From positions 1 to 32,564 of the forward strand of contig NZ_JACJOO010000010.1 in NCBI RefSeq assembly GCF_014695575.1: 32,564 nucleotides of DNA, given 5' to 3'. The notes beneath the pieces are model-generated. The model saw only the letters and a list, made by a program, of their open reading frames with translations. It was not told the origin of the DNA and did not search any database. Both the position numbers and the translations under genes were made by a program. This stretch comes from Leptolyngbya sp. FACHB-8. Its GTDB lineage: Bacteria; Cyanobacteriota; Cyanobacteriia; Elainellales; Elainellaceae. Shown piece after piece: positions 18,087 through 32,267 of the stretch; the stretch's first letter is position 1; each line of letters starts with the position of its first letter.

Positions 18087-18233
18087 GGTACCAGCAATTC
18101 TCATTTTGAAATCAGGCCCGAAAACCGCGCGCCTTTGGCGGGCGGTTTTCGGGCATCAAAGCCAAGAGTTCACGCCCGTAGGGCGTGAACTCTTGGCTTT
18201 GATGCCTATACTGAGAATTGCTGAAATGGTACC
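18087..18233. repeat. Three-way-junction repeat, family B, copy 2
   Basis: The outer stem GGTACC..AGCAATTCTCA (18087-18103) pairs with 18212-18233. Inner hairpins: 18116-18154 (TTT loop, one mismatch) and 18155-18203 (perfect 23-bp stem, GTA loop). The tip of the second hairpin differs from copy 1, but both arms changed together. Confidence 0.9.
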
Positions 18234-18319: not shown

Positions 18320-18466
18320 ATGAGCAGTAAAGCCATGGAATTAGCACTCGTCGTATTTGTACTACAAATTCTGCTCTTTTTCTGGTTTATTGAGACTCTT
18401 GGAAAAATTAAAGTGTATCTACGCGATATTCGCGACATTGCCCAAAGATTAGATAGAGAGCTGTAA
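18320..18466 (+). CDS. 48-residue single-pass membrane protein
   Basis: ATG at 18320 gives 48 codons to TAA 18464-18466. After MSSKAMEL there is one clean membrane segment (ALVVFVLQILLFFWFIETLG, residues 9-28), then an amphipathic, charged helix (KIKVYLRDIRDIAQRLDREL). The sharp hydrophobic/charged partition and absence of palindromes make it a likely gene. No family is recognised. It is on the same strand, about 195 bp ahead of the CHAT gene, and might be a small membrane partner of that block; this link is positional only. Confidence 0.6.
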   Translation: MSSKAMELALVVFVLQILLFFWFIETLGKIKVYLRDIRDIAQRLDREL

Positions 18467-18496
18467 TACTGCTTTGATGTGAAGATACATAGGATA

Positions 18497-18526
18497 GGAG
18501 GCGTGGTGCGTATGGACTACGCCTCC
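18497..18526. repeat. Short hairpin
   Basis: GGAGGCGTGGT and ACTACGCCTCC pair with one mismatch around a short loop. It lies between the small membrane protein and the CHAT gene and could be a weak terminator or leader structure. Confidence 0.4.
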
Positions 18527-18661
18527 CATATGGATCAAGTTCTAAGTGCTCTATCAGCAAATCCAGGTAAAATTCAATCCGTTTAAGCTTACGTTCACTC
18601 TGATGCTGAATCGTTCCAAGGGTTGAGAGAATTGTAAGCAGAATCGCAAAGTGTTGTCTCT

Positions 18662-20080
18662 ATGCGATCGCTGCGAAATCCCCATCGATTAGCGTCACTG
18701 ATAATGAAACATGATTATCGAGCGGCTTTTTGCTTTCTTTTAGCTCTTTGCGTTGCGCTATTGCTCCGATTGCCTCTCAGCGCACAAACTCAGAGTCCAG
18801 TAATACCAAATGCACCCCCATTATCTGCGCTCCGACTGAACCCACAGCAGTTAAAAGCATCCTTAGATGCAGGAAATGTTGCTGAAGCAGTTCAACAATT
18901 AGAGCAGGGATGGCGGCAACAGCTAAATGAATATTATGGCCGATACTTCAGAACTGAGCTTTTTCCTCCTGAGCAAATTGCTCAAGGTTTGAGACAAACC
19001 GCTAGTACGACAGGGCAGCGATCAGCGCTCATTTATGCGGTATCGATTCCTGAGCAACTCGAAATAATTCTGCTCCTGCCTAGCGGGCAACTTCGTCACC
19101 ATCGGGTTACAGAAGCATCTGCTGAAGTTTTGACCACCACGACTCGCAATTTACGGATGGGACTGGTCAATATCAATACGTCTACGAGTGAGTATTTACC
19201 CCCAGCACAGCAGTTGTATCGATGGATTATCGAGCCCCTAAAGCCTGTGTTAGAGGAACAGGGGATTACGAATTTGATCTTCTGTTTGGGCGGGAAGCTA
19301 CGCAGTGTGCCCATGGCCGCGTTGCATGATGGTCAGCAGTTCCTCATCGAGCAATACAGTATTGGCATTATTCCAGCGTTTAACTTACTCGATCGCCGCC
19401 CCTCACAGCTCTCTGAGGCGCAAGTTTTAGCAATGGGTGCATCAGAGTTTCAAAACCAGGAACCCCTTCCTGCTGTCCCTGTAGAGCTGGCAGCTATCCG
19501 TCAGTTGTGGCCGGGTGAAGTTCGCTTGAATCAGCAGTTTACGGTGGAGAATTTGAGACAGCAGCGATCGCGCCAACCCTTTAGTCTGATTCACTTAGCA
19601 ACCCATGCCGATTTTGCACCTGGCTCGGTTCAAAATTCCTACATTCAGTTTTGGGATCGCCGCCTCTGGCTAGACCAGCTTCGGGACATGAACTTACAGG
19701 CTCCTCCTGTAGAATTGCTGGTACTGAGTGCCTGTCGTACCGCTTTGGGAGATACGAATGCCGAGCTAGGGTTTGCTGGATTAGCCGTACAATCGGGAGC
19801 CAAAGCCGCACTGGCAAGTCTATGGAAAGTCTCCGACAGCGGAACAGTGGCGCTCATGACAGGATTTTATCAGAACCTAAAAACGGCTCCAACGAAAGGA
19901 GAAGCCTTACGCCAAACTCAACTCGCCTTGCTTCAGGGCCGTCTCAATTTAGATAATCCTGTAATTCAGCAAGTCCTACGAAATGTTCCACATCCGTCTG
20001 AAGTGGTAGATATGGCAACCACTCGCTTGTCCCATCCTTACTACTGGTCAGGGTTTACAATGATCGGAAACCCATGGTAG
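18662..20080 (+). CDS. CHAT-domain (caspase-like) protein with N-terminal signal/anchor segment
   Basis: 472 residues. A hydrophobic segment (AAFCFLLALCVALLLRLPLSA, 21-41) followed by AQTQ looks like a signal peptide or anchor, so the rest may be exported. The CHAT peptidase domain occupies about 180-472, with catalytic His315 (LIHLATHADF) and Cys358 (LLVLSACRTA), then GFAGLAVQSGAKAALASLWK and WSGFTMIGNPW, the family's standard end. TPR repeats common in cyanobacterial CHAT proteins are absent; a short helical region (60-120) stands in their place. ATG 18662 is used; the internal ATG 18704 would give a cleaner signal peptide (MKHDYRAAF...). It is first in a tight plus-strand block with a sigma factor, DUF1822, CHAT-CHASE2 and DUF928. 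Substrate unknown. Confidence 0.9.
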   Translation: MRSLRNPHRLASLIMKHDYRAAFCFLLALCVALLLRLPLSAQTQSPVIPNAPPLSALRLNPQQLKASLDAGNVAEAVQQLEQGWRQQLNEYYGRYFRTELFPPEQIAQGLRQTASTTGQRSALIYAVSIPEQLEIILLLPSGQLRHHRVTEASAEVLTTTTRNLRMGLVNINTSTSEYLPPAQQLYRWIIEPLKPVLEEQGITNLIFCLGGKLRSVPMAALHDGQQFLIEQYSIGIIPAFNLLDRRPSQLSEAQVLAMGASEFQNQEPLPAVPVELAAIRQLWPGEVRLNQQFTVENLRQQRSRQPFSLIHLATHADFAPGSVQNSYIQFWDRRLWLDQLRDMNLQAPPVELLVLSACRTALGDTNAELGFAGLAVQSGAKAALASLWKVSDSGTVALMTGFYQNLKTAPTKGEALRQTQLALLQGRLNLDNPVIQQVLRNVPHPSEVVDMATTRLSHPYYWSGFTMIGNPW

Positions 20081-20141
20081 ACCGCTGGCATCCGGTCTTT
20101 CGCTATCGCTTGTCGTTAGAGAGGCACTGGAATTCCACGCT

Positions 20142-21341
20142 ATGCAGGCTCGGCAAGACGTTATGGATCAATTCACAACGTTCCTACAGTTCGCGGGCGA
20201 TCGCGCCGAAGGATGGGCTGTAGACGGACGCTTGCGCCGTAGTATGCAGATGCGAATGGCTGAGTTAGACCATCAAACCAGTTCTGAAGCGTTTTGGGCT
20301 GTTTACTGGCATCACCAATGGTTGGCAACAGAAACGACATCCTCACAACAGCTTTCCCTGGCTCACTTGAGTGCTTATCTCCAAGAGGTTGGGTACTGGG
20401 CCGCTCAACGGGTTGCCCAGACTGGCAACCCCCTATTTGATGGCTTCCAGATAGCCCTGGAAAAACTTCCAAAGGTTTTACGAGCCTGTGACCCAAATCA
20501 TCACGTTAGTTTGAAACCCTATAGCCGAATTGCCTTTGAGAATATTATTCGAGATTCGTTGCGACAACAGCAGACCGTTAATCTGTGTAATGATTGGGCC
20601 TTGTTGTTGCGGGTAAGCCGCAAGCGGATACAGGAAGCGTTGCAGCAGGTGGGATTGTCTGCGGAGACGATCGCCCGCTACGTCCTGGCCTGCCAGAGCT
20701 ACGAGGCGGGCTATCAACTGCTACGCTCGGCGAACCGTCAGCGCATTCAACGACCTGATGCGGAAGACTGGGAAACCCTGGTTCAGTGCTACAACCAGCG
20801 CCGATCGCCACAAGACCCTACCATCGATGCGGCTACGATGGAAACCTGGTTGCTTTATTGTGCAAAACAAGTTCGAACTTATTTGTACCCTACATTTCTG
20901 TCGTTGAATGCTCCTCGATCTGAAGATGAAAGTGACTGGCAGAGTGAGCTACCTGCCCAGCAAGAGCCACCTCTAACGATGCTGATGGAACAGGAAGACA
21001 CGCGTGTTCGACAGGAGCAGCGATCGCAGCTTAACGAAATCCTCTCCGCAGCACTAGGACAGCTTGATTCACAATCCCAACATCTTCTTCAAACGTATTA
21101 TCAGCAGCAGTTAACGCAACAGCAGATTGCTCAACAATTAGATTTGCCCCAATACACCGTATCGCGCCGCCTATCAAAGGCAAGGGAAAAACTGCTGATC
21201 GCGGTAGTGCGCTGGAGTCAATCGACCCTGCATATCGAGCCCAGTTCGACCGTAATGAACAGTATCAGCGCTCTACTGGAGGACTGGCTGTATCACCATC
21301 TTCCTACGGCTGATTCTCCAACCGTTCCAACTCATCGCTGA
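20142..21341 (+). CDS. Sigma-70 family RNA polymerase sigma factor
   Basis: 399 residues. Region 4 is clear at about 296-355: EILSAALGQLDSQSQHLLQT, then the recognition helix-turn-helix QQIAQQLDLPQYTVSRRLSK. The earlier part is divergent; FDGFQIALEKLPKVLRACDP (99-118) and LKPYSRIAFENIIRDSLRQ (124-142) resemble region 2 core-binding helices. This large, divergent form is a cyanobacterial group normally adjacent to DUF1822 and CHASE2 genes. It would direct transcription of a dedicated regulon, possibly this block itself. The start ATG 20142 lies 61 bp after the CHAT stop; ATG 20163 is an alternative. DUF1822 follows after 20 bp, so co-transcription is likely. Confidence 0.85.
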   Translation: MQARQDVMDQFTTFLQFAGDRAEGWAVDGRLRRSMQMRMAELDHQTSSEAFWAVYWHHQWLATETTSSQQLSLAHLSAYLQEVGYWAAQRVAQTGNPLFDGFQIALEKLPKVLRACDPNHHVSLKPYSRIAFENIIRDSLRQQQTVNLCNDWALLLRVSRKRIQEALQQVGLSAETIARYVLACQSYEAGYQLLRSANRQRIQRPDAEDWETLVQCYNQRRSPQDPTIDAATMETWLLYCAKQVRTYLYPTFLSLNAPRSEDESDWQSELPAQQEPPLTMLMEQEDTRVRQEQRSQLNEILSAALGQLDSQSQHLLQTYYQQQLTQQQIAQQLDLPQYTVSRRLSKAREKLLIAVVRWSQSTLHIEPSSTVMNSISALLEDWLYHHLPTADSPTVPTHR

Positions 21342-21361
21342 CCGAGTTCAGGAGTCGATTC

Positions 21362-22519
21362 ATGGTCTTTTTGTATGCCTCACCGACCGAAATTGTTTTA
21401 CAGATAGAGGCAGCTATCCGGGCACAGGCTGATCGCCAGAGCCGGCAATTACGCCATCCCGATGGGCGGTGGAATGCCTACCTCAACAGTATGTGTATCC
21501 GAACTGTGTTGTTCTGGCTCCAGACGGACTATTCCCTCTCGGCGCGGGTTTGGTTGGCGAATGAGTTGCCGGAGTTATGGGGGGCTGTGAATGGTACGGC
21601 GATCGCCCTGAACCATAAGCGATTTGTCTTCATTCCGAGCAAGCAAATTGATACCGAGGAATTAATTGTGCCGCAGGAGTGGGTTGACCTGGCTGAATGG
21701 GCTGGCGATTACTTTGTGGCTGTACAAATCGATCCCGAAGGCGAGTGGTTGCGCCTCTGGGGATATACAACGCATGCTCAGCTTAAAACAAAAGGTGAAT
21801 ACCAGGCGGGCGATCGCTCCTACGTTCTGGATGCGACTCAATTGGTTCGAGATGTCACAGCACTCTGGGTTATCCACCAACTGAATCCCACTGAATCCAC
21901 TCAGGCATCACTATTGCCTGCCCCGGCCCATGCTCCACCGCAAATTCAATCCCTTCTCCAGCTCTCTGATCTTCTTCCACCCCGGCTGACGCTTCCCTAT
22001 ACTCAATGGAGTGAACTGCTTTGCCACGGTGAAACGCGACAGCAGTTGTACCAGCAATGGCGGACATCGGAGGCGCGATCGCTCCTTCCTTCAAGCGTTA
22101 AACTCGTGAACTGGCTGCAACATCGCTTTGAGGAAGGATGGGAAGCCCTAGAAAACTTAATCCAGACTCAACCTCAGTTAGCCTATAGCCTGCGCGATCG
22201 CACCGACAGCGATGGGGCTGTGCGACGGGCGCGTTCGATTGCATTAGGAGACGGTCACCATGTGATCTTGATGGTGATCTTGGCAGAGGTAGAGCGATCG
22301 TCCCAAATCCGAGTACGCCTTTATCCGGGCGATCGCCCCCTACCCGCCAATCTTTCCCTGGCATTACTCACCGATGTAGGCGAAGTGGTGCAATGGGTGC
22401 AGGCCCGCGAAGATGCAGACTTCATTCAACTCAAACGGTTTGTGTGTCCGGCAGGTAAACCTTTTTGGATTCAGGTCGCACTGGATGAACCGCTCTTTTT
22501 GGAGTCATTTGTGGGATAA
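21362..22519 (+). CDS. DUF1822 family protein
   Basis: 385 residues, typical length. The N-terminal helix region (IEAAIRAQADRQSRQLRHPD, then RWNAYLNSMCIRTVLFWLQT) is the recognisable part of DUF1822. The rest is predicted alpha/beta with many Trp-containing strands (WLRLWGYTTHAQLKTKG; GEVVQWVQ). It has no membrane segment or signal peptide, so it is cytoplasmic. The family has no assigned biochemistry; it consistently sits between a sigma factor and a CHASE2 protein, which suggests a regulatory partner, for example of the sigma factor. It starts 20 bp after the sigma gene and ends 4 bp before the CHASE2 gene, so translation is likely coupled. Confidence 0.85.
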   Translation: MVFLYASPTEIVLQIEAAIRAQADRQSRQLRHPDGRWNAYLNSMCIRTVLFWLQTDYSLSARVWLANELPELWGAVNGTAIALNHKRFVFIPSKQIDTEELIVPQEWVDLAEWAGDYFVAVQIDPEGEWLRLWGYTTHAQLKTKGEYQAGDRSYVLDATQLVRDVTALWVIHQLNPTESTQASLLPAPAHAPPQIQSLLQLSDLLPPRLTLPYTQWSELLCHGETRQQLYQQWRTSEARSLLPSSVKLVNWLQHRFEEGWEALENLIQTQPQLAYSLRDRTDSDGAVRRARSIALGDGHHVILMVILAEVERSSQIRVRLYPGDRPLPANLSLALLTDVGEVVQWVQAREDADFIQLKRFVCPAGKPFWIQVALDEPLFLESFVG

Positions 22520-22523
22520 GGCC

Positions 22524-24887
22524 ATGATGTATTGGGTGACGCTGAACTTAGGTAAAGGAAGTCTTGCACAGGGCTTTAGCAGCGTTACCGTGCAGATCTG
22601 GCAACCCAAACAGTTAACGCCAATCCAACGAATTGGCGCATTACCCCCAGCACCTGATCTTGAGGCAAGCCATCATCGCTGGCGGCAATTTTATCTCACA
22701 CTTTATACAGGAATGGGGTGGCGAAAATCCTTACTCAAGCATGAGGTTAGAACACCCATCAGAAATGATTGGAGTGATGATTTTGAGATTATTGAGGAGG
22801 ATATCACCGTCATATCTCGCTCAGAGTTTTTAACGCTCTGTGAAAAATTGAAGGAACAGTTTAACCAATGGCTACATAACGATCTCTTCCGATTAGTCGA
22901 TCAATTACTGCGCACCCAACTCCATCCAGACGACCATATTCGCCTCATTGTAACGGCTGAGACGGATGAAGCCTTAGGATTACCCTGGCACCTGTGGGAG
23001 TTTTTAGATGATTATCCTTTGGCTGAATTGGCTTTGAGTCCGGCTAATTATGGGCGATCGCCCTCCACTTCCACCGCATCCCTACCCGCCAAAGTACGAA
23101 TTCTTGCCATTTTGGGCGATCGCCAGGGCATTGATACGGATGCCGACCAGCAATTCCTTCAACAACTGCCCCACAGCGAGATTACATTTTTAGTGGAACC
23201 TGATCAGGCAACGGTCAGTGAACAACTCTGGAAGGGCCATTGGGACATCCTATTTTTTGCAGGGCATAGTTCTAGCCAGGATCAGGGTTACATCCGAATT
23301 AACCCAAATGCGCGTTTGTCTATTGAGCAAATTAAATATGGCCTACAAACCGCGATCCGTCATGGCTTGAAACTCGCCATTTTTAACTCTTGCGATGGAT
23401 TAAGCCTGGCTCATGACCTGGCGGAATTACACCTGCCCCATATTATTGTCATGCGTGAATCGGTGCCCGATCGCATTGCCCAGGAATTTCTCAAATCGTT
23501 TCTGGCAGCTTTTTCGGGGGGACGATCGCTGCATGCTTCAGTACGTCAAGCTCGTGAGCGTTTACAGTCCTGGGCAGATGAATTTCCCTGCGCGACCTGG
23601 TTACCTGTAATTTGTCAAAATCCGGCAGAGGAGTCTCCCTTTTGGCAGGATTGGTATCGCGATCGCCAATTTTCTCCACGCTTGCCTCAACCCCGTGAAC
23701 GGGCTGCAATTGGATTCAGTAGTCTGTTGGCCGTGGGGGCGATCGCCGCCATTCGCTGGCTCGGCCTTCTGCAACCCCTGGAGTTAGCCGCCTTCGACCA
23801 ATTCCTGCAACGACGCCCTGCTGAATTACCAGATTCACGGTTGTTAATCGTCAACGTAACCGAAGATGACATTCGAGCAGAAGGCCAAGCTATCCGTCAG
23901 GGTTCCCTTTCCGATCGCACCCTCAGCCGCCTATTGCAAAGGATTGAGCAAGCTCAACCCCAGGTTATTGGGTTGGATATTTATCATGATTTTGCAGCCG
24001 GTCCTGAGTTAGCTTCACAGCTTAAATCCCAACGGCTCGTCGCCATTTGCAAACGGCCTGATACCCAGGATGACCCCTCAGGTGTCCTGCCACCACCAGA
24101 GGTTGAACCGGCTCAATTGGGGTTTAGTGACGTTGTACAGGATGACGATGGAGTGATTCGTCGCCACTTATTATTTACCAGCCCCAATTCTGCTTCGGTT
24201 TGCGTTACTCCCTATGCATTAAGTGTGCAATTAGCATTTCGCTATCTTCATGCCCAGGGAATTTCGCCTCAGTTTACCCCCGACTCTGCACTGCAACTGG
24301 GTGATGTGACCTTTCATGCCTTGCGATCCCGATCTGGAGGTTACCAATCTCTCGATGCACGAGGTAGCCAAATCCTACTCAATTATCGAGCTGCACCCAC
24401 ATTATCTGAAGTCGCTCAGCAGGTTACAGTGGGGCAGATTCTCAAAGGAGAAGTGCCAGTTGACACAATAAAAGATCGCATTGTACTGATTGGTGTTGCA
24501 ACATCCAGCACGGGCGATCGCTGGATGACCCCTTACGGTCGAGCCTTTGGAGCCCGTCCTCCCGGTGTTGTATTACAGGCCCAAATGACAAGTCAGCTTC
24601 TGAGTGCTGTGCTGAATGGACGTCCTCTATTGCAGGTATGGCATCCTCTCGTTGAGCTGATCTGGATTAGTGCATGGGCTGGACTGGGTGGAGTTTTAGC
24701 ATGGGGTATGTCTAGATGGCAAAGGAGAGCGATCGCCTGTGCTATAGTCATAAACCTTACGATCTGTTATCTATTGTTGTTACAGGGTCTTTGGATTCCT
24801 TGTATTCCAGCGATTGCGACTCTTCTACTTAGTTTTCTACTCTATCGCTTAAACCTTTCTCGTTTCCATTCATCTTCAAATTTGTAG
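22524..24887 (+). CDS. CHAT-CHASE2 membrane sensor protein
   Basis: 787 residues from ATG 22524; an open frame extends upstream but overlaps DUF1822. The N-terminal cytoplasmic half ends in a CHAT peptidase-like domain (about 130-365) with His248 (FFAGHSSSQ) and Cys290 (IFNSCDG), both catalytic positions present. One TM (about 394-411) leads to an extracytoplasmic CHASE2 sensor domain (about 412-700; ELAAFDQFLQRRPAELPDSR, LLIVNVTEDDI, VIGLDIYHDF, IVLIGVAT). Three C-terminal TMs follow (about 709-728, 735-756, 757-774). Usual CHASE2 proteins end in a kinase or cyclase; here the output is the protease at the N-terminus. Inferred role: an external signal alters cytoplasmic proteolysis. It is 4 bp after DUF1822 and 42 bp before DUF928. 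Confidence 0.92.
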   Translation: MMYWVTLNLGKGSLAQGFSSVTVQIWQPKQLTPIQRIGALPPAPDLEASHHRWRQFYLTLYTGMGWRKSLLKHEVRTPIRNDWSDDFEIIEEDITVISRSEFLTLCEKLKEQFNQWLHNDLFRLVDQLLRTQLHPDDHIRLIVTAETDEALGLPWHLWEFLDDYPLAELALSPANYGRSPSTSTASLPAKVRILAILGDRQGIDTDADQQFLQQLPHSEITFLVEPDQATVSEQLWKGHWDILFFAGHSSSQDQGYIRINPNARLSIEQIKYGLQTAIRHGLKLAIFNSCDGLSLAHDLAELHLPHIIVMRESVPDRIAQEFLKSFLAAFSGGRSLHASVRQARERLQSWADEFPCATWLPVICQNPAEESPFWQDWYRDRQFSPRLPQPRERAAIGFSSLLAVGAIAAIRWLGLLQPLELAAFDQFLQRRPAELPDSRLLIVNVTEDDIRAEGQAIRQGSLSDRTLSRLLQRIEQAQPQVIGLDIYHDFAAGPELASQLKSQRLVAICKRPDTQDDPSGVLPPPEVEPAQLGFSDVVQDDDGVIRRHLLFTSPNSASVCVTPYALSVQLAFRYLHAQGISPQFTPDSALQLGDVTFHALRSRSGGYQSLDARGSQILLNYRAAPTLSEVAQQVTVGQILKGEVPVDTIKDRIVLIGVATSSTGDRWMTPYGRAFGARPPGVVLQAQMTSQLLSAVLNGRPLLQVWHPLVELIWISAWAGLGGVLAWGMSRWQRRAIACAIVINLTICYLLLLQGLWIPCIPAIATLLLSFLLYRLNLSRFHSSSNL

Positions 24888-24929
24888 GTGCAGGTTCATC
24901 ATTCACGTTCATAAGAGGAGCGCTATACC

Positions 24930-25706
24930 ATGAAATATTATTCTCGTTTTTCAACCTATATCTTTCATATTCTTGTTCAATGTTCGTTGTGCATCTTTCC
25001 ACTATCATTTAGTTTGATACCTGTTCGTGTCGCAGCTCAATCTAGTGCAACCGGAGGGACTTTTACACCACCACCACCACCCGTTGTGGGAGAACCGGGA
25101 GGTAGAGGCCAGGGAGGCGGCTCTCGCAGTCCAGAATGCGAACGCTATGCAGACGTTACGGCTCTGGTGCCGACAGTGCAGGTGGGCGATCGCACATTTC
25201 AATGGGGGCTCACCACCCGATCCCACCCAACAGTTTGGCTATCCGCACCCGCAGGCTTAGCCGATGCGGTTCCCATCGAGTTTACCCTATGGAGCGAAGA
25301 TCCCCAGCCTATTTACCGAACCCTGCTCACCAGTACAGCAACAGCGCCAGGAGCTTTTCGGGTGACATTTCCTGAAGATACCCCTGCGCTATCTACGGGG
25401 ACGGTGTATCACTGGACAGTCTCTATTTTCTGCAACCCAGAAACGCCGGATGTACCTGTAAGAGTTGATGCCTACATTCAACGGACGGAATTATCCATTC
25501 CCCAGGAAACCTCCGATGTTCTTCAGACATCAGCGGCCTATGCCAGAGGTGGCGTCTGGTATGATGCTCTGTCTTTGTTGGGGGAACAGTACGGGGAGAG
25601 TGGAGATGAGGCGATCGCCGCAGCCTGGACAGACTTATTACAGCAAGTCAATCTCCATCAGTTACCTAACAGACCCATCGGAGCCTGTTGTCAGACGTCC
25701 CCTTGA
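24930..25706 (+). CDS. DUF928 family exported protein
   Basis: 258 residues. A signal peptide is evident (about 1-36; hydrophobic FHILVQCSLCIFPLSFSLIP and then VRVAAQ). A proline/glycine-rich linker (TFTPPPPPVVGEPGG) leads into DUF928: CERYADVTALVPTVQVGD, then FQWGLTTRSHPTVWLSAP, IEFTLWSED, GTVYHWTVSIFC, and a helical C-terminus (YARGGVWYDALSLLGE, AWTDLLQQVNL) ending IGACC, as expected for a full-length member. Paired cysteines suggest an oxidising, periplasmic location. Function is unknown; it may be the ligand or partner of the CHASE2 domain. Ribosome-binding AAGAGGAG lies about 10 bases upstream of ATG. Last gene of the block. Confidence 0.88.
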   Translation: MKYYSRFSTYIFHILVQCSLCIFPLSFSLIPVRVAAQSSATGGTFTPPPPPVVGEPGGRGQGGGSRSPECERYADVTALVPTVQVGDRTFQWGLTTRSHPTVWLSAPAGLADAVPIEFTLWSEDPQPIYRTLLTSTATAPGAFRVTFPEDTPALSTGTVYHWTVSIFCNPETPDVPVRVDAYIQRTELSIPQETSDVLQTSAAYARGGVWYDALSLLGEQYGESGDEAIAAAWTDLLQQVNLHQLPNRPIGACCQTSP

Positions 25707-25741: not shown

Positions 25742-25802
25742 CCAAATTCCAAGAGCCTGATTTTGTGCGCTTCGCGCACAAAATCAGGCTCTTGGAATTT
25801 GG
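25742..25802. repeat. 29-bp perfect palindrome, TTC triloop, related to family A
   Basis: 25742-25770 pairs exactly with 25774-25802. The inner arm TGATTTTGTGCGC resembles family A (TGATTTTGCGTGCGC) while the outer arm (CCAAATTCCAAGAGCC) is different. Confidence 0.88.
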
Positions 25803-26163: not shown

Positions 26164-26306
26164 AGTCGTGACTATTAGTTACAGGAGATGACGAAAGTCC
26201 GATATTAAATTCGACTTTTTTAAGACGGCTATCAAGACATCTGTTAGAGGTTTTGAAGGGTGCAGTTTCCTATGATCAAAACGATCGCACCCTTACCCCC
26301 AAAGCC

Positions 26307-27515
26307 ATGAATTTCGTCAACTTTCCTGCCCCCGATATTAAACCTCTCGAACGCTTAAACGTATACGATAGCTTGATGATCAACGCCCAACGATGGTCAC
26401 TGGCCCATGCATACCATCGACAGCGGCAAAATGTGCACTATCAATCCCTCAACCAACCTGGCATTGTTTGTGGGTTGGGCATCACGATTATAGACCCACC
26501 AGATTCTACAGAATCGCGGTTTCGCGATCAACGGTGGATTGAAATTCAGCCTGGCATTGCCATTGATGTAGAAGGTAATGTCATCATCGTAGATGAAGCC
26601 GTTGATCGCACCTATCGCATTGCAGCTAAACCTCCTATAGCAGGGAGTATTACCGTTTATGTTGTAGTTAGTTATGTAGAACCAGAAGCTCCAAGTTATC
26701 AACCCCATTCTGAAGTCCTGCGAGAACAGTTTCGCTTCGATCAAAAAACGACACCACCCAAGGACCACGAAATTGAACTGTGTCGTATTCAGCTAAGCAA
26801 CAATTTCATTCAGATTGAGCGTCCAGATGACGTTCTTTTCCCGGTGCAGAATCAGTTAGATATGAGCCATCGCTTACAGGCTCAAACGAAGCCGATCGCC
26901 ACGGCCCATCTGGCTCAGATCAAACCCCAGAGCACAGAAGCCGGGGTATCAAAAGGGCAAGCGGTTACATTTCTAGCACGATCGACCTCGGCCCTTTATC
27001 CCAGCTTACAGGGCATAGCCGCTCCTAATGTTTTGTCGCTACAGGCTGAAGCGATCGCCCCCTACGATCTCCTGCTTCTTGATGCAGATCATGTATCGGA
27101 GCTCAGCGGCACCGAACAGGATGTCTTGAGTGAGTACCTGACTCAGGGGGGTATGGTGCTGATTGAATTGCTGGATACAAACGAGTTTGCGATCGCCAAC
27201 TTTCAAAACTGGATCGAACACAGCTTCCAGACTGCTTTGGAATCCTGGCATGAGTTATCAAATGACCATCCGGTGCGATCGCATCCATTCCTTTTTGCCG
27301 CGCTTCCAGAGGTAGATCAGACATCCATCCAAGTCTGGTGTGGTGGCGGAATTATCTTTGTGGCTGGAGGGCTGTCATCGGCCTGGGCACCGGATGTTCA
27401 AGGAATGCGATCGCGCAATGACATTCGCACAGCTCAGGAATTTGGCATCAACCTGTTGCACTTTGCCTGGCGGCGACGACACCTGACCCAGTTGCTTCAG
27501 CCTGCGTTGTCGTAG
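26307..27515 (+). CDS. Two-domain protein: beta-rich N-terminus plus DUF4159-like C-terminus
   Basis: 402 residues from ATG 26307; a TTG at 26253 would add 18. The N-terminal half starts PLERLNVYDSLMINAQRW, then AYHRQRQNVHYQSLNQPGIV and CGLGITI, with WIEIQPGIAIDVEGNVI, a beta module of the type 'GIVCGL...PGxAIDxxGxxI' often encoded near phage-like and contractile-injection genes. The C-terminal half (about 215-400) has a Rossmann-like pattern (YDLLLLDADHV, LSEYLTQGGMVLIELLD, DHPVRSHPFLFAALPEV, GGIIFVAGGLS) that resembles DUF4159. It has no signal peptide or TM. Assignment of both halves is from pattern. First gene of a three-gene plus-strand block; the next starts 83 bp after its stop. Confidence 0.6.
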   Translation: MNFVNFPAPDIKPLERLNVYDSLMINAQRWSLAHAYHRQRQNVHYQSLNQPGIVCGLGITIIDPPDSTESRFRDQRWIEIQPGIAIDVEGNVIIVDEAVDRTYRIAAKPPIAGSITVYVVVSYVEPEAPSYQPHSEVLREQFRFDQKTTPPKDHEIELCRIQLSNNFIQIERPDDVLFPVQNQLDMSHRLQAQTKPIATAHLAQIKPQSTEAGVSKGQAVTFLARSTSALYPSLQGIAAPNVLSLQAEAIAPYDLLLLDADHVSELSGTEQDVLSEYLTQGGMVLIELLDTNEFAIANFQNWIEHSFQTALESWHELSNDHPVRSHPFLFAALPEVDQTSIQVWCGGGIIFVAGGLSSAWAPDVQGMRSRNDIRTAQEFGINLLHFAWRRRHLTQLLQPALS

Positions 27516-27598
27516 GGACAATGCCCACAATTTGTAAATCCCTTAACTGACAAGGATGGGAGCACAATGCTCACCCGATCCGCTAGAGGAATGGAAGG

Positions 27599-29905
27599 AT
27601 GGAAAACCGAATTCAAGCCACGGTTTCTAAACGGAAGCTCAGATTAATTCCAGACTTGGCCGCCGATCCCGATCTGAAGTCGGGCAATGAGCACGAGTTT
27701 GATGTGGTCGTAATCAATGCGAGTCGCTACTTTACCAGCTTTCAACTGGAGTTACTGGCTCCTGGCCTTGACTCACAAGCGGGAGGAGATTGGTACAGCA
27801 TCGAGCCAGAGATCTGTGCCAAGAAACCACCCGGTGCCCAAACCCAATTTCACGTTGTTATTAAGAAACCGCCAATTCCGGCCTACGATACCACCCTGGA
27901 TTTAACTCTGCGAATTTTTTCGGTAGAGTATGCCACTCTCTTCACCAGTCAACCCATTAGTTTATTGGTCGAGAAGCCGCGTCGATCATTACGCATTTTT
28001 CTGCCTAATAAGGATTTGAAGGTTTTTCCAGGGGATGAAATCGAGATTCCTGTTATCCTCTACAACCTCGATTCCAAATCGAATGCTGTTATTGTTAGCC
28101 TGACGGGGCTTGAGCCCGGTTGGATGACGGGCTCACGGGATATAGCCTCCATTGAACAGGAATTGACCATTGAAGCCGGAGATTCCCTCAAAACTAGCTT
28201 CTATTGCCGCCCTCCGCACTATACCGCCCTTAGCCAACCTTACCCCTTCACGGTAGAGGTCAAATCGCCAGCAAACTATTACAGCGCTCGTGAGCAGGGT
28301 GTTTTAGAGGTATTACCGCAAGGGGCTGTCACCTTTGAATGCCAACCTGAGGTTCAAACGATCGCCGCCAAGGGCCTCCGTAAGGCTGTAGGGACAGCTA
28401 TCTATGAGTTGCGATTTGAGAATCGGAGTAACCAGCCGCAAGAGATCGCGATCGCCCCTTCAGAAGGCCCCCACCCATTCATTCCACCCCCACCCCTGCG
28501 CCTTCATCCAGGAGAAGTTCAGCAAGCCCCACTGGTTGTTCAACGGCGGCGACCCTGGTTAGGTTGGCCCCGACGGGTGTTGTTCCCTGTGACTCCGGAG
28601 TTAACCCCGATGCACAGCGACAGCTCCATGACAGCCGTGCAACTACAGCCCAATAGCAAAACCCTGGAGTTACGCATTCCGCCCCTCATTCCACCGCTTG
28701 CCCAACTAGGAAGTGCGCTCCTGTTCCTGCTGTTGCTCTGGATGCTGTGGTTACTCCGGTCTGATGGACATCACAGCACCGTTAATTTTGTCCGGTTCAG
28801 CGGCGATGGCACAACGGTATTGAGCGGTTCTAGCGACGAAACGGTACGACGCTGGTTTGTGAATCGAACCATGTGGCAACCCGATCGCCTACTGCATTGG
28901 CAATGGCAGGCTCAGCGATTGATTCAGCCCGATAACATCGGTGAGAACATTGGCAAAGCGGTCCGGGTAATCCGCCACGGACGCAAAAATAATTTAGTGG
29001 CCGTAGGTTTAGAGGATGGCACCATTCAGTTGTGGGATACTGCGTTCACCAAACCACAGCAAACCCTTTACCAGGGAACCGATCGTGTCTTTGATCTGGT
29101 GTTTACTCAGGATTCAAACCTGCTGTTCAGTGGACATGGGAGTGGCATGGTGCGTCGCTGGTCTGTGGTTCCATCCCAAACTGCCGGTCGTCAAATTCGT
29201 ACATCCCTGGGTGAAATGTTCCCCGCTACCGCCAAAGAACCGCAGCGAACTTATTTCCCCTTTGCCGTATCGTCCCTTGCGCTCAGCGAATTCGATCAAG
29301 CTCCCCCATGGTTAGTTGTAGCAGGGCAATTTAATCAGCTGGTGTTGTGGGATTGGAATGCTAATCGCCTTTACAACGTCCCCTATCACTGGGAAACGCC
29401 CCCCTATGCCTTCTCGCAACCCATTATGGGTAAGGAGCAGGCGATCGCCAGCGTCGCAACCGCTCAAAATCTTCTGGCCACCGCTGATAACCAGGGTTAC
29501 ATCACCCTGTGGGATATGACAAAGCGCCCATGCCAGCTACAGGGCGATGCGGAGGGTATCTGTAATCTGCCCATCCTTGATCAATGGCGCGACGGTCATA
29601 GCAAGCAACCTGTGCGTTCCGTTGCCCTCACTTCTGACGGATGCTATATGGCCAGTACCGGGGACGATGGACGTGTCATGTTGTGGCCCCTGGAGAATGG
29701 AAAACGTTCGGAACATGAACGCAATGGTGTACGCCTGGCAGATTTCCCAATTCGCCTGAATAGCGTCGATATTACTCAAAAAGACAACACATTGGTGATT
29801 ACCAGTGACGGTGATCGCGATCGCGTCATGCTGTACCGCATTCATACCCGCAACGATGCAAAGGATGAGAACCATGCCACTTGCCACACACCCACTATTT
29901 ATTGA
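27599..29905 (+). CDS. Membrane protein with Ig-like domains, one TM and a C-terminal WD40 propeller
   Basis: 768 residues. About 1-355 are three beta-sandwich units like NEW3/Ig-like modules (LKVFPGDEIEIPVILYN; LTGLEPGWMTG; TAIYELRFENRSNQPQEIAI), ending in a basic RRRPWLGWPRRV motif. A single TM lies at about 366-385 (LGSALLFLLLLWMLWLLRS). A WD40 propeller follows (about 392-760) with blades such as VRFSGDGTTVLSGSSDETVR, GLEDGTIQLWD, TADNQGYITLWD and STGDDGRVMLWPL. No enzyme motif is seen, so it is a scaffold or sensor with domains on opposite membrane faces. AGAGGA lies 8 bases before ATG 27599. The next gene overlaps its end by 32 bases, so they are co-translated. It shares its N-terminal plan with that gene product. 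Confidence 0.85.
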   Translation: MENRIQATVSKRKLRLIPDLAADPDLKSGNEHEFDVVVINASRYFTSFQLELLAPGLDSQAGGDWYSIEPEICAKKPPGAQTQFHVVIKKPPIPAYDTTLDLTLRIFSVEYATLFTSQPISLLVEKPRRSLRIFLPNKDLKVFPGDEIEIPVILYNLDSKSNAVIVSLTGLEPGWMTGSRDIASIEQELTIEAGDSLKTSFYCRPPHYTALSQPYPFTVEVKSPANYYSAREQGVLEVLPQGAVTFECQPEVQTIAAKGLRKAVGTAIYELRFENRSNQPQEIAIAPSEGPHPFIPPPPLRLHPGEVQQAPLVVQRRRPWLGWPRRVLFPVTPELTPMHSDSSMTAVQLQPNSKTLELRIPPLIPPLAQLGSALLFLLLLWMLWLLRSDGHHSTVNFVRFSGDGTTVLSGSSDETVRRWFVNRTMWQPDRLLHWQWQAQRLIQPDNIGENIGKAVRVIRHGRKNNLVAVGLEDGTIQLWDTAFTKPQQTLYQGTDRVFDLVFTQDSNLLFSGHGSGMVRRWSVVPSQTAGRQIRTSLGEMFPATAKEPQRTYFPFAVSSLALSEFDQAPPWLVVAGQFNQLVLWDWNANRLYNVPYHWETPPYAFSQPIMGKEQAIASVATAQNLLATADNQGYITLWDMTKRPCQLQGDAEGICNLPILDQWRDGHSKQPVRSVALTSDGCYMASTGDDGRVMLWPLENGKRSEHERNGVRLADFPIRLNSVDITQKDNTLVITSDGDRDRVMLYRIHTRNDAKDENHATCHTPTIY

Positions 29906-32267
29906 AGATCGAGCGGCGAATCACGAAGCCAAACGGGGTTCTGCGCTGAAACGGAGCATTGTGGTCAAGAACCTGGGCGATCGCCCCGCTGAAGTTGATT
30001 TGTGGATTGTTGCCACCGAACAAAAGGCAGAACCCATCCTGCGGTGGTGCAGCTTCAGCGAACGCAACCCGTTTCGTCTAGAGGCAAGGGAAAGCCGGGA
30101 AGTGATGCTCACCTTCGACATTCCCCAACAGGCTACACCTGATTTGTACCATTACGAAGTGCTGGTGGATGCCCAGGCGCAGTATCCAGACAAGCCACCC
30201 ATCCGCCGCCCTCAACAGTTTCGCGTTCTACCCTCGACCCACGATGCGGAATGGGGAACTGACCCCCTGTTCTCGGTGCAGCCCGTTACCCAGGCAGCTA
30301 ATCCCTATCGCCTTCAGGCAGGGGAAGCCTTAGATGTGACAGTTCACATAAAAAACTGCTCCAAACGGGTCGATCGGTTCTACCTCACCTGTCCCGAACT
30401 GCCGCAGTCCTGGTTCACCGTCCGCTATCCCGAAAGCAGTTTAGACAATCCCGGTTTGGTCAGCGAAACCGATGGACTGGAGTTGAATCCTGACAGCAGC
30501 GGTTCCATTGTTTTGAGGTTGCACCCGCCGCAATTTACCACTGCCGGACACTACTTTCCAACCCTCCGGCTCACCTCTAGCAATGACGATACCCTGCAAC
30601 GACTGGATGTGGTGTATCTACAAATTCTGACGAGCGATCGCCTGGATGTACAGCTTCAACCCTCCCTACGCCGCATTCCCAGCGAATCTGGTCTGTTTGA
30701 TGTGCAAATCAGCAATCAGGGGAATGTCGTTCGTAAACTCATTGTGGATGCCATTGACCCTGAACACCAGTTTCGCTACCGGATTGAGCCTTTTGTACTG
30801 CATCTGGAGCCGGGTCATAGTGAGCCACTCGTCATCCATACCATGCCCCGAAAGTGGTGGGCTCGTCCCTGGTGGGGCAAGGGGCGAGAGATTCCATTTG
30901 ACCTTCACCTGAAAGAGGTTTCGGGTGCGATGGACGCGCCAAAGATACCGTCAACCGCTCAGGGGGTTATTCTTTGGCAAGCACGCCCCTGGTGGATGCT
31001 GGTGCTGCTGGTACTGGCAGGATTAGGGGCTGTAGGGGCGATCGCCCTCATGGTATGGCTCACTCTCTTCAAACGCCCCGCTCCCGCCCCTGTTCCTCAA
31101 CCTCAAATTGTGGCCATTAACCCGACGGTTAATTCAACAACGGGGGAACCGCTAACCTATCGAGCAGGCAAAGACGAGACAATGCGCCTGGATTGGACAA
31201 TTAACCGCTTGAATGATATTGATCGCATTACTATTATTCATCTAGAGCAAGGAACTGAAGTCAGCCGCAAGAATTACACTTTTGCAGGCAGCATCCCGAA
31301 AGAACTCCAGCGTCGTGCTGGACAGCAAGATTTGTGCGCCGCCGTGCAGGAGGACACCACTCAGTTAAGCTGCCGGGCCATGCCCATTGCTCAAGCCACC
31401 CCCGGAACCCACACATTTCGACTGCAAGTATTTTCCAGGAGCGATCGCACTCAACCTGTAGACGAACGAACAACAGATTCCCTGACAATCGCCGCGCTAT
31501 CTCACCCTGCGATCGTGCAGTTTTCTCCGACTGCTGCGACGTATCAATCCGGGTCAGAAGTCGGGGAGGGAGCGATCGCACCGCCTATCCGCCTCAATTG
31601 GGAGATTAGTTCTCCTGAGCAAATTCAAGAGGTGCAGGTGATGGGCATTACAGAACATGGCACGATCACCGATGCGATGCAACGCTACTCCCTGGCTGAT
31701 GGAGTTCCGCCTGAGCTGCAAGGCTTCTGCTCCATGACCACACGTCTGGTCTGCCGCAATGTACCAACTTCAGCGACTCGGCCTGGAACCTACACCTTTC
31801 AACTCACCTTAATTGCCAAGCAGTCAGAGCAGACCATAAAACAAACACCCCCCATTCGTATTCAGGCAACTCCCCCTAAAGTGCAATCGTTGCAGATCAA
31901 CGGAGAGGATGTAGGACAAAACCCTACCCATCGCATTGAGCTGTCTGCCGATAAACCCACAACCATCACGTTTTCATGGCAGATTGAATCAGACCCCGAT
32001 ACCCAGGTTGAACTTCTCCCGGCACCGGGGTCAGTTCCAGCAACAGGCTCTCTGGAATATACGCTGAATGATCAACCGGGACAGCAACCTTTAACACTAC
32101 GAATAACCAACCCATCAGGAGAACAAATGACACGAACAATTCTCATAGAAACCGTTGCTCCCCCACCTGAACCGGCGCCTCCGCCTACTGAGCCGACGAA
32201 TCCTGTCAGTCCGGTTCCATCTCCATCTCCTAAACAACTCATTCTGCCCATTCCCGTTCAAAATTAG
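29874..32267 (+). CDS. Membrane protein with Ig-like domains on both sides of one TM and a proline-rich tail
   Basis: 797 residues from ATG 29874, chosen over upstream starts because AAGGATGAGA lies right before it and the beta module begins at once (ALKRSIVVKNLGDRPAEVDL). About 1-360: three NEW3/Ig-like units (LDVTVHIKNCSKRVDRFYLT; LFDVQISNQGNVVRKL), ending in a basic-aromatic KWWARPWWGKGRE motif like that of the preceding gene. One TM lies at about 373-396 (MLVLLVLAGLGAVGAIALMV). About 400-760: two or three Ig-like repeats, each opening with PQIV or PAIVQFSPT and carrying a pair of Cys (DLCAAVQEDTTQLSCRAMP; FCSMTTRLVCRNVP). The tail is proline-rich (PPPEPAPPPTEPTNPVSPVP). No enzyme motif. 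It looks like a surface or inter-membrane adhesin/scaffold paired with the WD40 protein. Confidence 0.82.
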   Translation: MPLATHPLFIEDRAANHEAKRGSALKRSIVVKNLGDRPAEVDLWIVATEQKAEPILRWCSFSERNPFRLEARESREVMLTFDIPQQATPDLYHYEVLVDAQAQYPDKPPIRRPQQFRVLPSTHDAEWGTDPLFSVQPVTQAANPYRLQAGEALDVTVHIKNCSKRVDRFYLTCPELPQSWFTVRYPESSLDNPGLVSETDGLELNPDSSGSIVLRLHPPQFTTAGHYFPTLRLTSSNDDTLQRLDVVYLQILTSDRLDVQLQPSLRRIPSESGLFDVQISNQGNVVRKLIVDAIDPEHQFRYRIEPFVLHLEPGHSEPLVIHTMPRKWWARPWWGKGREIPFDLHLKEVSGAMDAPKIPSTAQGVILWQARPWWMLVLLVLAGLGAVGAIALMVWLTLFKRPAPAPVPQPQIVAINPTVNSTTGEPLTYRAGKDETMRLDWTINRLNDIDRITIIHLEQGTEVSRKNYTFAGSIPKELQRRAGQQDLCAAVQEDTTQLSCRAMPIAQATPGTHTFRLQVFSRSDRTQPVDERTTDSLTIAALSHPAIVQFSPTAATYQSGSEVGEGAIAPPIRLNWEISSPEQIQEVQVMGITEHGTITDAMQRYSLADGVPPELQGFCSMTTRLVCRNVPTSATRPGTYTFQLTLIAKQSEQTIKQTPPIRIQATPPKVQSLQINGEDVGQNPTHRIELSADKPTTITFSWQIESDPDTQVELLPAPGSVPATGSLEYTLNDQPGQQPLTLRITNPSGEQMTRTILIETVAPPPEPAPPPTEPTNPVSPVPSPSPKQLILPIPVQN

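Follow-up and report, generated by a model that had tools for sequence, protein, structure and literature searches.

The closest described systems couple caspase-like proteases to sigma factors encoded beside them. In Craspase, the type III-E CRISPR system, the CHAT protease Csx29 cleaves Csx30, an inhibitor of the adjacently encoded sigma factor, and this cleavage has been proposed to relieve the inhibition (PMC10028731). As described in the main text of PMC8195603 (eLife 2021), EACC2-caspase proteins carry C-termini such as CHASE2, and most of those free of TRADD-N occur with genes for an extracytoplasmic function (ECF) sigma factor and DUF1822; autopeptidase activation and sigma output were proposed for these systems from genomes in 2021. 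Here we describe a cluster of five plus-strand genes in a 32,564-nucleotide stretch of the Leptolyngbya sp. FACHB-8 genome (contig NZ_JACJOO010000010.1; hereafter the window). The cluster encodes a short CHAT protein (CHAT1), a diverged sigma-70 factor, a DUF1822 protein, a receptor in which CHAT is joined to CHASE2 through a transmembrane (TM) segment, and a DUF928 protein (Table 1). An intact catalytic dyad, adjacent sigma and DUF1822 genes and a variable C-terminal sensor (CHASE2) are all features of EACC2-caspase systems found in the window. Equating the caspase domain of PMC8195603 with the CHAT domain is our own reading, based on the description given there. With a probability of roughly 0.45, we propose that the cluster is one operon for trans-envelope signalling, built of two modules, in which CHAT would act on DUF1822 to free the sigma factor.

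Conservation of the receptor operon

A scan of named genomes with an alignment of 11 receptor sequences yielded 569 relatives or more. Of their loci the best 80, all cyanobacterial, were examined with flanks of up to 10 kb, and genes were labelled with profiles built in this analysis. Because only the best 80 of 569 or more were taken, the sample favours close relatives of the query; neighbour counts omit loci with contig ends too near and are not de-duplicated. DUF928 was encoded within two genes downstream of the receptor in 71 of 75 loci, DUF1822 immediately upstream in 58 of 73, and the strict order sigma-DUF1822-receptor was present in 36 of 67. Because these neighbours recur, the five-gene grouping is not due to chance. 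The preliminary description of this DNA had named conserved co-occurrence of the families across cyanobacterial genomes as a check on its proposal, and such co-occurrence was indeed found.

The five-gene set led by a short exported CHAT was present in 3 of the 80 loci, from Calothrix sp. CSU_2_0 (L098), Dulcicalothrix desertica PCC 7102 (L105) and Lyngbya sp. HA4199-MV5 (L108), the first two having an extra gene between receptor and DUF928. Partial cases were L101, which ends at a contig end, L103, which has no labelled sigma, and L102, in which sigma-DUF1822 is inverted. CHAT1 is most closely related (47 to 51% identity) to the short CHATs encoded by operons of this type in L108, L102, L098, L103 and L105. 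In 28 of 50 full-flank loci, a CHATp gene was encoded no further than about 10 kb away, where about 4% would be expected by chance from the density in the FACHB-8 genome, whose 6.9 Mb hold 15 CHAT matches (13 of them outside the window). The exported CHAT is a recurrent member of the operon neighbourhood. The signal or anchor segment reported earlier for CHAT1 agrees with simple hydropathy, which detected one N-terminal hydrophobic segment.

The catalytic His/Cys dyad was found in 111 of 112 EACC2/CHAT-type proteins (the remaining one is gapped there), including all 95 that carry CHASE2; 66 of 67 CHATp proteins also have it. As the dyad is nearly universal, proteolysis is probably the function of these CHAT proteins. 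The single CHATp exception (L105, 1441-2595) has Ser and Tyr replacing His and Cys. In the window, the residue numbering given previously for both dyads is exactly right (Table 1), and about 215 residues with conserved positions stand before the catalytic part of the receptor. Simple hydropathy placed hydrophobic segments of the receptor at 398-416, 709-727 and 736-754, which agrees with the earlier prediction of an outside CHASE2 domain joined through a TM segment to a cytoplasmic CHAT domain.

Sigma factor and DUF1822 as a unit

The window sigma factor matched NCBIfam TIGR02937 at residues 76-352 (96.6 bits, above the cut-off of 42.9), while only region 4 exceeded the Pfam cut-offs. A profile of 11 relatives matched the solved sigma domain 8b3z at 83-145 (E 5e-4). 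Because these matches reach beyond region 4, the protein is probably a complete though diverged sigma factor with an insert of about 150 residues rather than a region-4 fragment. As described in a 2024 survey, region-4-only cyanobacterial sigmas are filed as family J.1, and the function of certain other families without r2 or r4 by Pfam is questioned (PMC11119718). The window's class, 'region-4-only' by Pfam, probably belongs to J.1.

Two sigma classes were distinguished, long (that of the window) and short. Their union into one family was rejected on an hhalign probability of 2.8, and the classes were treated separately; the short class resembles ECF sigmas as well, which is clearest for L052 and at profile level. 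The sigma class matched the DUF1822 class in all 55 receptor operons whose sigma factor is known (34 long, 21 short, none mixed). On the receptor tree, the sigma class switches four times, at least three of these switches being forced by supported branches (FastTree). Sigma and DUF1822 thus switch together, and DUF1822 belongs with sigma. Across all loci collected, with or without a receptor, there are 92 pairs, in 7 of which a long sigma stands before the other DUF1822 class.

A second sample was anchored on DUF1822 and covered 59 genomes of the phylum. Matches were present in 38, of which 20 had single weak ones in one family (f15); these 20 and one in G058 were left out of the full-flank set. 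Sigma was encoded within two genes upstream of 42 of 51 DUF1822 genes, and an EACC2/CHAT-type gene immediately downstream of 25 of 51, 12 of the 25 with CHASE2. Other CHAT-type proteins after DUF1822 were fused to nSTAND1 (one also with WD40), a Peripla_BP_6 periplasmic-binding domain or pentapeptides, and further followers were double trypsin-like domain proteins without Pfam CHAT (three loci) and one two-partner-secretion (TPS) protein. Since such diverse proteins stand downstream, sigma-DUF1822 is a base unit coupled to varying proteases and sensors. In the three trypsin-like loci (L055, L056 and L084), the double trypsin-like protease gene stands in place of CHAT, two of the three with TPRs.

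The DUF1822 model (predicted local distance difference test score [pLDDT], 89.2) combines an alpha/beta N-part with a C-terminal beta sandwich, a helical part lying between the two. A Foldseek search with it returned no match at E ≤0.001; among the listed VIA rows, the C-part matched mostly Ig-like folds and the N-part Hjc and NhoI/Eco15I. Identity between groups and within the CHAT-linked group looked suggestive, at 0.39 and 0.40 respectively for the N part versus 0.23 and 0.33 for the C part. The C-terminal domain was considered as a CHAT docking site; in trees made with a quick method that gave long-branch warnings, the label needs four changes with either part, and the candidate was kept as a lead only. 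A near-invariant Arg278 in the linker was rejected as evidence of a cleavage site, because DUF1822 proteins that have no CHAT gene next to them keep it invariant too.

A common element lies upstream of the short-class sigma genes and consists of GTAAAGTTTTGTAA (recognized by eye) followed by TTTTGC(A/G)TAAAA, with the two-part form GTAAAGTTTTGTAA-N14-17-TTTTGCRTAAAA. In an expectation-maximization (EM) search, the motif scored 78.8 (120 starts) versus 34.0 to 39.9 in three shuffles (40 starts each). Its second half, with at most one mismatch, occurred at a distance of up to 200 bp from 10 of 35 short sigmas (de-duplicated) versus 13 of 981 unlabelled genes; as these are the sequences in which the motif was discovered, the p-value of this count is only descriptive. 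The strict two-part motif matched 9 times in 2.45 Mb, and 5 of these matches precede short sigma genes. Autoregulation is common among ECF sigma factors, and the motif would fit it. In the long class, a near-identical stretch, TACGATGRCTTTTAGTYTTTATGCAC, lies upstream of the sigmas in L041, L106 and L109 and is perhaps a subgroup promoter.

DUF928 as a probable partner of CHASE2

In the same 59 genomes, 14 have DUF928, with 72 genes. For 49 of these, a CHASE2 gene lies no more than 3 kb away (on the same strand for 43), versus about 0.8 expected from density, counting the CHASE2 matches listed, to about E 1e-39, from the DUF928-bearing genomes plus one from G022. In the DUF1822-anchored sample, DUF928 followed CHAT with CHASE2 in 9 of 12 cases versus 0 of 13 for CHAT without CHASE2 (p 1e-4). 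Twelve DUF928-CHASE2 pairs were picked by hand, and 8 of their CHASE2 proteins were scanned with Pfam: four carried a C-terminal nucleotide cyclase, two a C-terminal hybrid histidine kinase, one three N-terminal TIR domains and one no other Pfam domain. CHATp genes adjoin 5 of the 12 pairs. DUF928 goes with CHASE2 whatever the output domain. Elsewhere in the FACHB-8 genome (G000:C86, locus L179, 1949-5974), three TIR domains precede CHASE2 in a protein encoded adjacent to DUF928, the effector being oriented as in the CHAT-CHASE2 receptor.

A hydrophobic N-terminus was present in 81 of 90 DUF928 copies (residues 11-25 in that of the window, its one such segment), and both cysteines listed in Table 1 are invariant in 46 aligned sequences. 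The model (pLDDT 83.5) has a beta sandwich followed by helices. After realignment its best solved match was MtxA (Z 8.8 over 145 residues, 3.9 Å; next row, Z 6.2), a protein that is not among the 50 Foldseek rows listed for the model and that sequence search did not match to DUF928. The gene next after mtxA in magnetotactic bacteria shows likeness to adenylate cyclase and CHASE2, and MtxA as described (PMC4439547) resembles DUF928 in its signal peptide and adjacent CHASE2 receptor gene, and possibly in its Ig-like domain plus TPR helices. The MtxA system differs from that of the window in its cyclase output. Because the candidate fold match and the CHASE2 gene partner agree, DUF928 is likely to be a periplasmic co-receptor of CHASE2. 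A DUF928-CHASE2 cluster of this sort was noted in Nostoc in 2017 (PMC5587647). The sigma-DUF1822 and CHASE2-DUF928 pairs put forward in the preliminary description are both supported by the genomic tests, and for DUF928 also by the fold and gene context of MtxA.

Proposed mechanism and alternative explanations

In the proposed operon, presumably read as a single transcript, the CHASE2 ectodomain and its periplasmic partner DUF928, together with the exported CHAT in this subtype, would sense an envelope or surface-protein signal. The receptor's CHAT domain, predicted from hydropathy to be cytoplasmic, would then become active and may cut or displace DUF1822, the cognate partner of sigma, so that the freed sigma factor could transcribe its regulon. 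We infer the cleavage or displacement of DUF1822 and the release of sigma from the Craspase precedent, by which DUF1822 would act as an anti-sigma factor. A more specific version, which we hold tentatively, is that the cluster may be a membrane-receptor counterpart of Craspase with exchangeable modules, CHASE2, DUF928 and exported CHAT driving a protease that would release sigma from DUF1822. Receptors would keep DUF928 as outputs vary (CHAT, cyclase, histidine kinase, TIR), and sigma-DUF1822 would be swapped as a unit, in some genomes before a trypsin-like protease gene instead of CHAT.

Several results weigh against the trans-envelope operon. DUF1822 has no clear fold match, since the listed VIA rows all have Z <7, within the tool's stated background, and a comparison of its profiles with the PDB set, up to E 1, matched no anti-sigma factor. 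The divergent DUF1822 C-terminal type that goes with close receptors is confined to a single clade, and its correlation with receptors therefore counts as one event. Long branches occur in the receptor tree (FastTree), and TM-segment counts by crude hydropathy differ among receptor relatives. Upstream of long-class sigma genes, bipartite k-mer and EM searches found no promoter motif clearly above shuffles (width 12, 44.4 versus 31.5 to 35.5, headed by a GCGATCGC-like palindrome; width 20, 72.1 versus 61.2 to 69.4). Sigma-DUF1822 pairs also occur without CHAT, 26 of 51 DUF1822 genes having no EACC2/CHAT-type gene directly downstream (some near contig ends). Among the four genes upstream of each of 94 receptor genes, a labelled sigma is missing in 39 cases and both sigma and DUF1822 in 17, partly owing to contig ends.

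The same pairs without CHAT would be expected if the two parts of the cluster had separate jobs, sigma-DUF1822 being independent while CHAT-CHASE2, DUF928 and the exported CHAT mature or police nearby TPS exoproteins. TPS-domain proteins were found in 22 of 50 full-flank loci (PF05860 on 4 of 10 scanned flanking proteins), and CHATp and DUF928 also adjoin CHASE2 proteins with other outputs. We nevertheless consider this division unlikely: DUF1822 is usually the gene directly before the receptor, 15 of 29 receptor frames overlap DUF1822 or start ≤14 bp away in long-class loci that have the window's C-terminal DUF1822 type (mechanical starts), and the predicted cytoplasmic CHAT would be kept away from exoproteins. 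A conflict or cell-suicide device, in which the receptor CHAT cleaves many host proteins on envelope attack and sigma and DUF1822 merely control expression of the operon and helpers, appears doubtful, though slightly more probable than that division. PMC8195603, in its main text, sets EACC2-caspase systems among apoptosis-like conflict systems, and the nSTAND1 followers of DUF1822 as well as the triple-TIR-CHASE2 protein of the FACHB-8 genome would fit such a role. Yet the order sigma-DUF1822-receptor is kept more tightly than a helper role needs. PADLOC also gave no convincing match for the five proteins, with weak matches only (BovA, 4e-5, to CHAT1; CARF, Csa3 and mad1 to sigma), and membership in a defence system was rejected.

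It is improbable, though nothing direct argues against it, that DUF1822 is an activator, chaperone or scaffold of sigma which the protease destroys to switch the system off. Such a role would suit a protein that has no hydrophobic segment, has no anti-sigma match in the PDB set and is retained where no protease gene follows. However, an ECF sigma gene is usually adjoined by its cognate anti-sigma gene.

Cluster features and flanking sequences

The five same-strand genes and their families agree with the preliminary description, as confirmed by the open reading frames and by Pfam and NCBIfam assignments. Its cluster start at 18320 does not stand, as no member begins before CHAT1. The intergenic gaps of 61, 20 and 42 bp are right, while that of 4 bp before the receptor depends on choosing the ATG at 22524, since the longest receptor frame begins at 22413, within DUF1822. 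Like DUF1822, the sigma factor has no hydrophobic segment by simple hydropathy.

Table 1. Genes of the cluster and their predicted products
Feature	Position	Strand	Evidence
CHAT1, short CHAT protein, predicted exported, 472 aa; His315/Cys358	18662..20080	+	Signal peptide, hydrophobic core 21-35; Pfam CHAT E 7e-72
Long-class sigma-70 factor, 399 aa	20142..21341	+	Region 2-like ~83-149, insert, region 4 ~300-352; Pfam region 4 E 2e-10
DUF1822 protein, 385 aa, without hydrophobic segment	21362..22519	+	Pfam DUF1822 E 4e-79; C-terminal beta sandwich 287-385 (model)
CHAT-TM-CHASE2 receptor protease, 787 aa; His248/Cys290; TM 398-416, then CHASE2, C-terminal TMs	22524..24887	+	Pfam CHASE2 E 6e-62, CHAT E 5e-12
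DUF928 protein, predicted exported, 258 aa; Cys70 and Cys168	24930..25706	+	Pfam DUF928 E 1e-36; model with beta sandwich and three helices

The cluster is closely preceded by a 48-codon frame (18321-18467) in which one hydrophobic stretch was recognized by eye. A palindromic element at 18092-18227 resembles a miniature inverted-repeat transposable element; 40 copies including this one were scored, of 197 candidates in the genome. After DUF928 there is a near-perfect inverted repeat (25742-25802), whose sole other genome match covers 33 of 91 query bases. The genes at 26253-32267 include weak matches to a CIS13-family contractile-injection-system protein and to DUF4159, together with WD40 repeats and Ig-like matches below threshold.

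Comparison with known systems

The preliminary description knew of no characterised function for this set. Our literature searches agree, finding no bench test of an envelope sensor-CHAT-sigma design and nothing joining CHASE2, the CHAT domain and cyanobacteria, with DUF1822 and DUF928 scarcely mentioned. However, the core, an EACC2-caspase with variable C-terminus, ECF sigma and DUF1822, was already proposed from genomes in 2021 as an autopeptidase-to-sigma system (PMC8195603). As far as the searches reach, what is new is the two-module reading, DUF928 as a CHASE2 partner across outputs, the exported CHAT as a recurrent member, the co-switching of sigma and DUF1822 and the short-class motif. 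If the proposal is true, bacteria wire an envelope receptor to the transcription machinery via caspase-like proteases without CRISPR. It would also assign a role to DUF1822, DUF928 and the diverged sigma class, all three widespread but of unknown function, and each link would be open to single-gene work in culturable filamentous cyanobacteria.

Craspase (Csx29-Csx30-CASP-sigma), as described in PMC10028731, resembles the window in encoding a CHAT protease, a larger partner and a sigma factor together, but its trigger is RNA via Cas7-11 and that of the window would be a membrane receptor. The window sigma scored 19.1 bits, in region 4 only, against the CASP sigma family NF041236 (cut-off 100), and a Pfam scan of the nine open reading frames between 16746 and 32267 found no Cas protein. 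DUF1822 had no sequence match to any solved chain when its profiles were compared with the PDB set. Csx30 was not among the profile matches listed at E up to 1, a sequence-level comparison with a set in which the presence of Csx30 was unchecked, nor among the structural matches listed for the DUF1822 model, which does not exclude likeness.

HetF, a CHAT protein of filamentous cyanobacteria, shares with the receptor an N-terminal CHAT region followed by a TM segment (as described in PMC8406250), but its C-terminus has TPRs, not CHASE2. Against the HetF equivalog NF045509 (cut-off 1200) the receptor scored 13.4 bits, and a HetF-like protein of the FACHB-8 genome (L172) 784 bits; the latter matches the receptor profile over 232 columns. 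A Trichodesmium metacaspase-CHASE2 protein, as described in PMC3501461, is like the receptor in its caspase-like N-terminus inside, CHASE2 outside, and one TM segment before and three after; it differs in its metacaspase domain, and no DUF1822 context is given in that description. The words DUF928, hemagglutinin and two-partner do not occur in the main text of PMC8195603, which calls DUF1822 a TPR protein, whereas our model is alpha/beta with a beta sandwich. The set corresponds to the EACC2-caspase systems of that text in its caspase domain, its variable C-terminus and its neighbouring ECF sigma and DUF1822 genes, and perhaps also in the constant N-terminal region.

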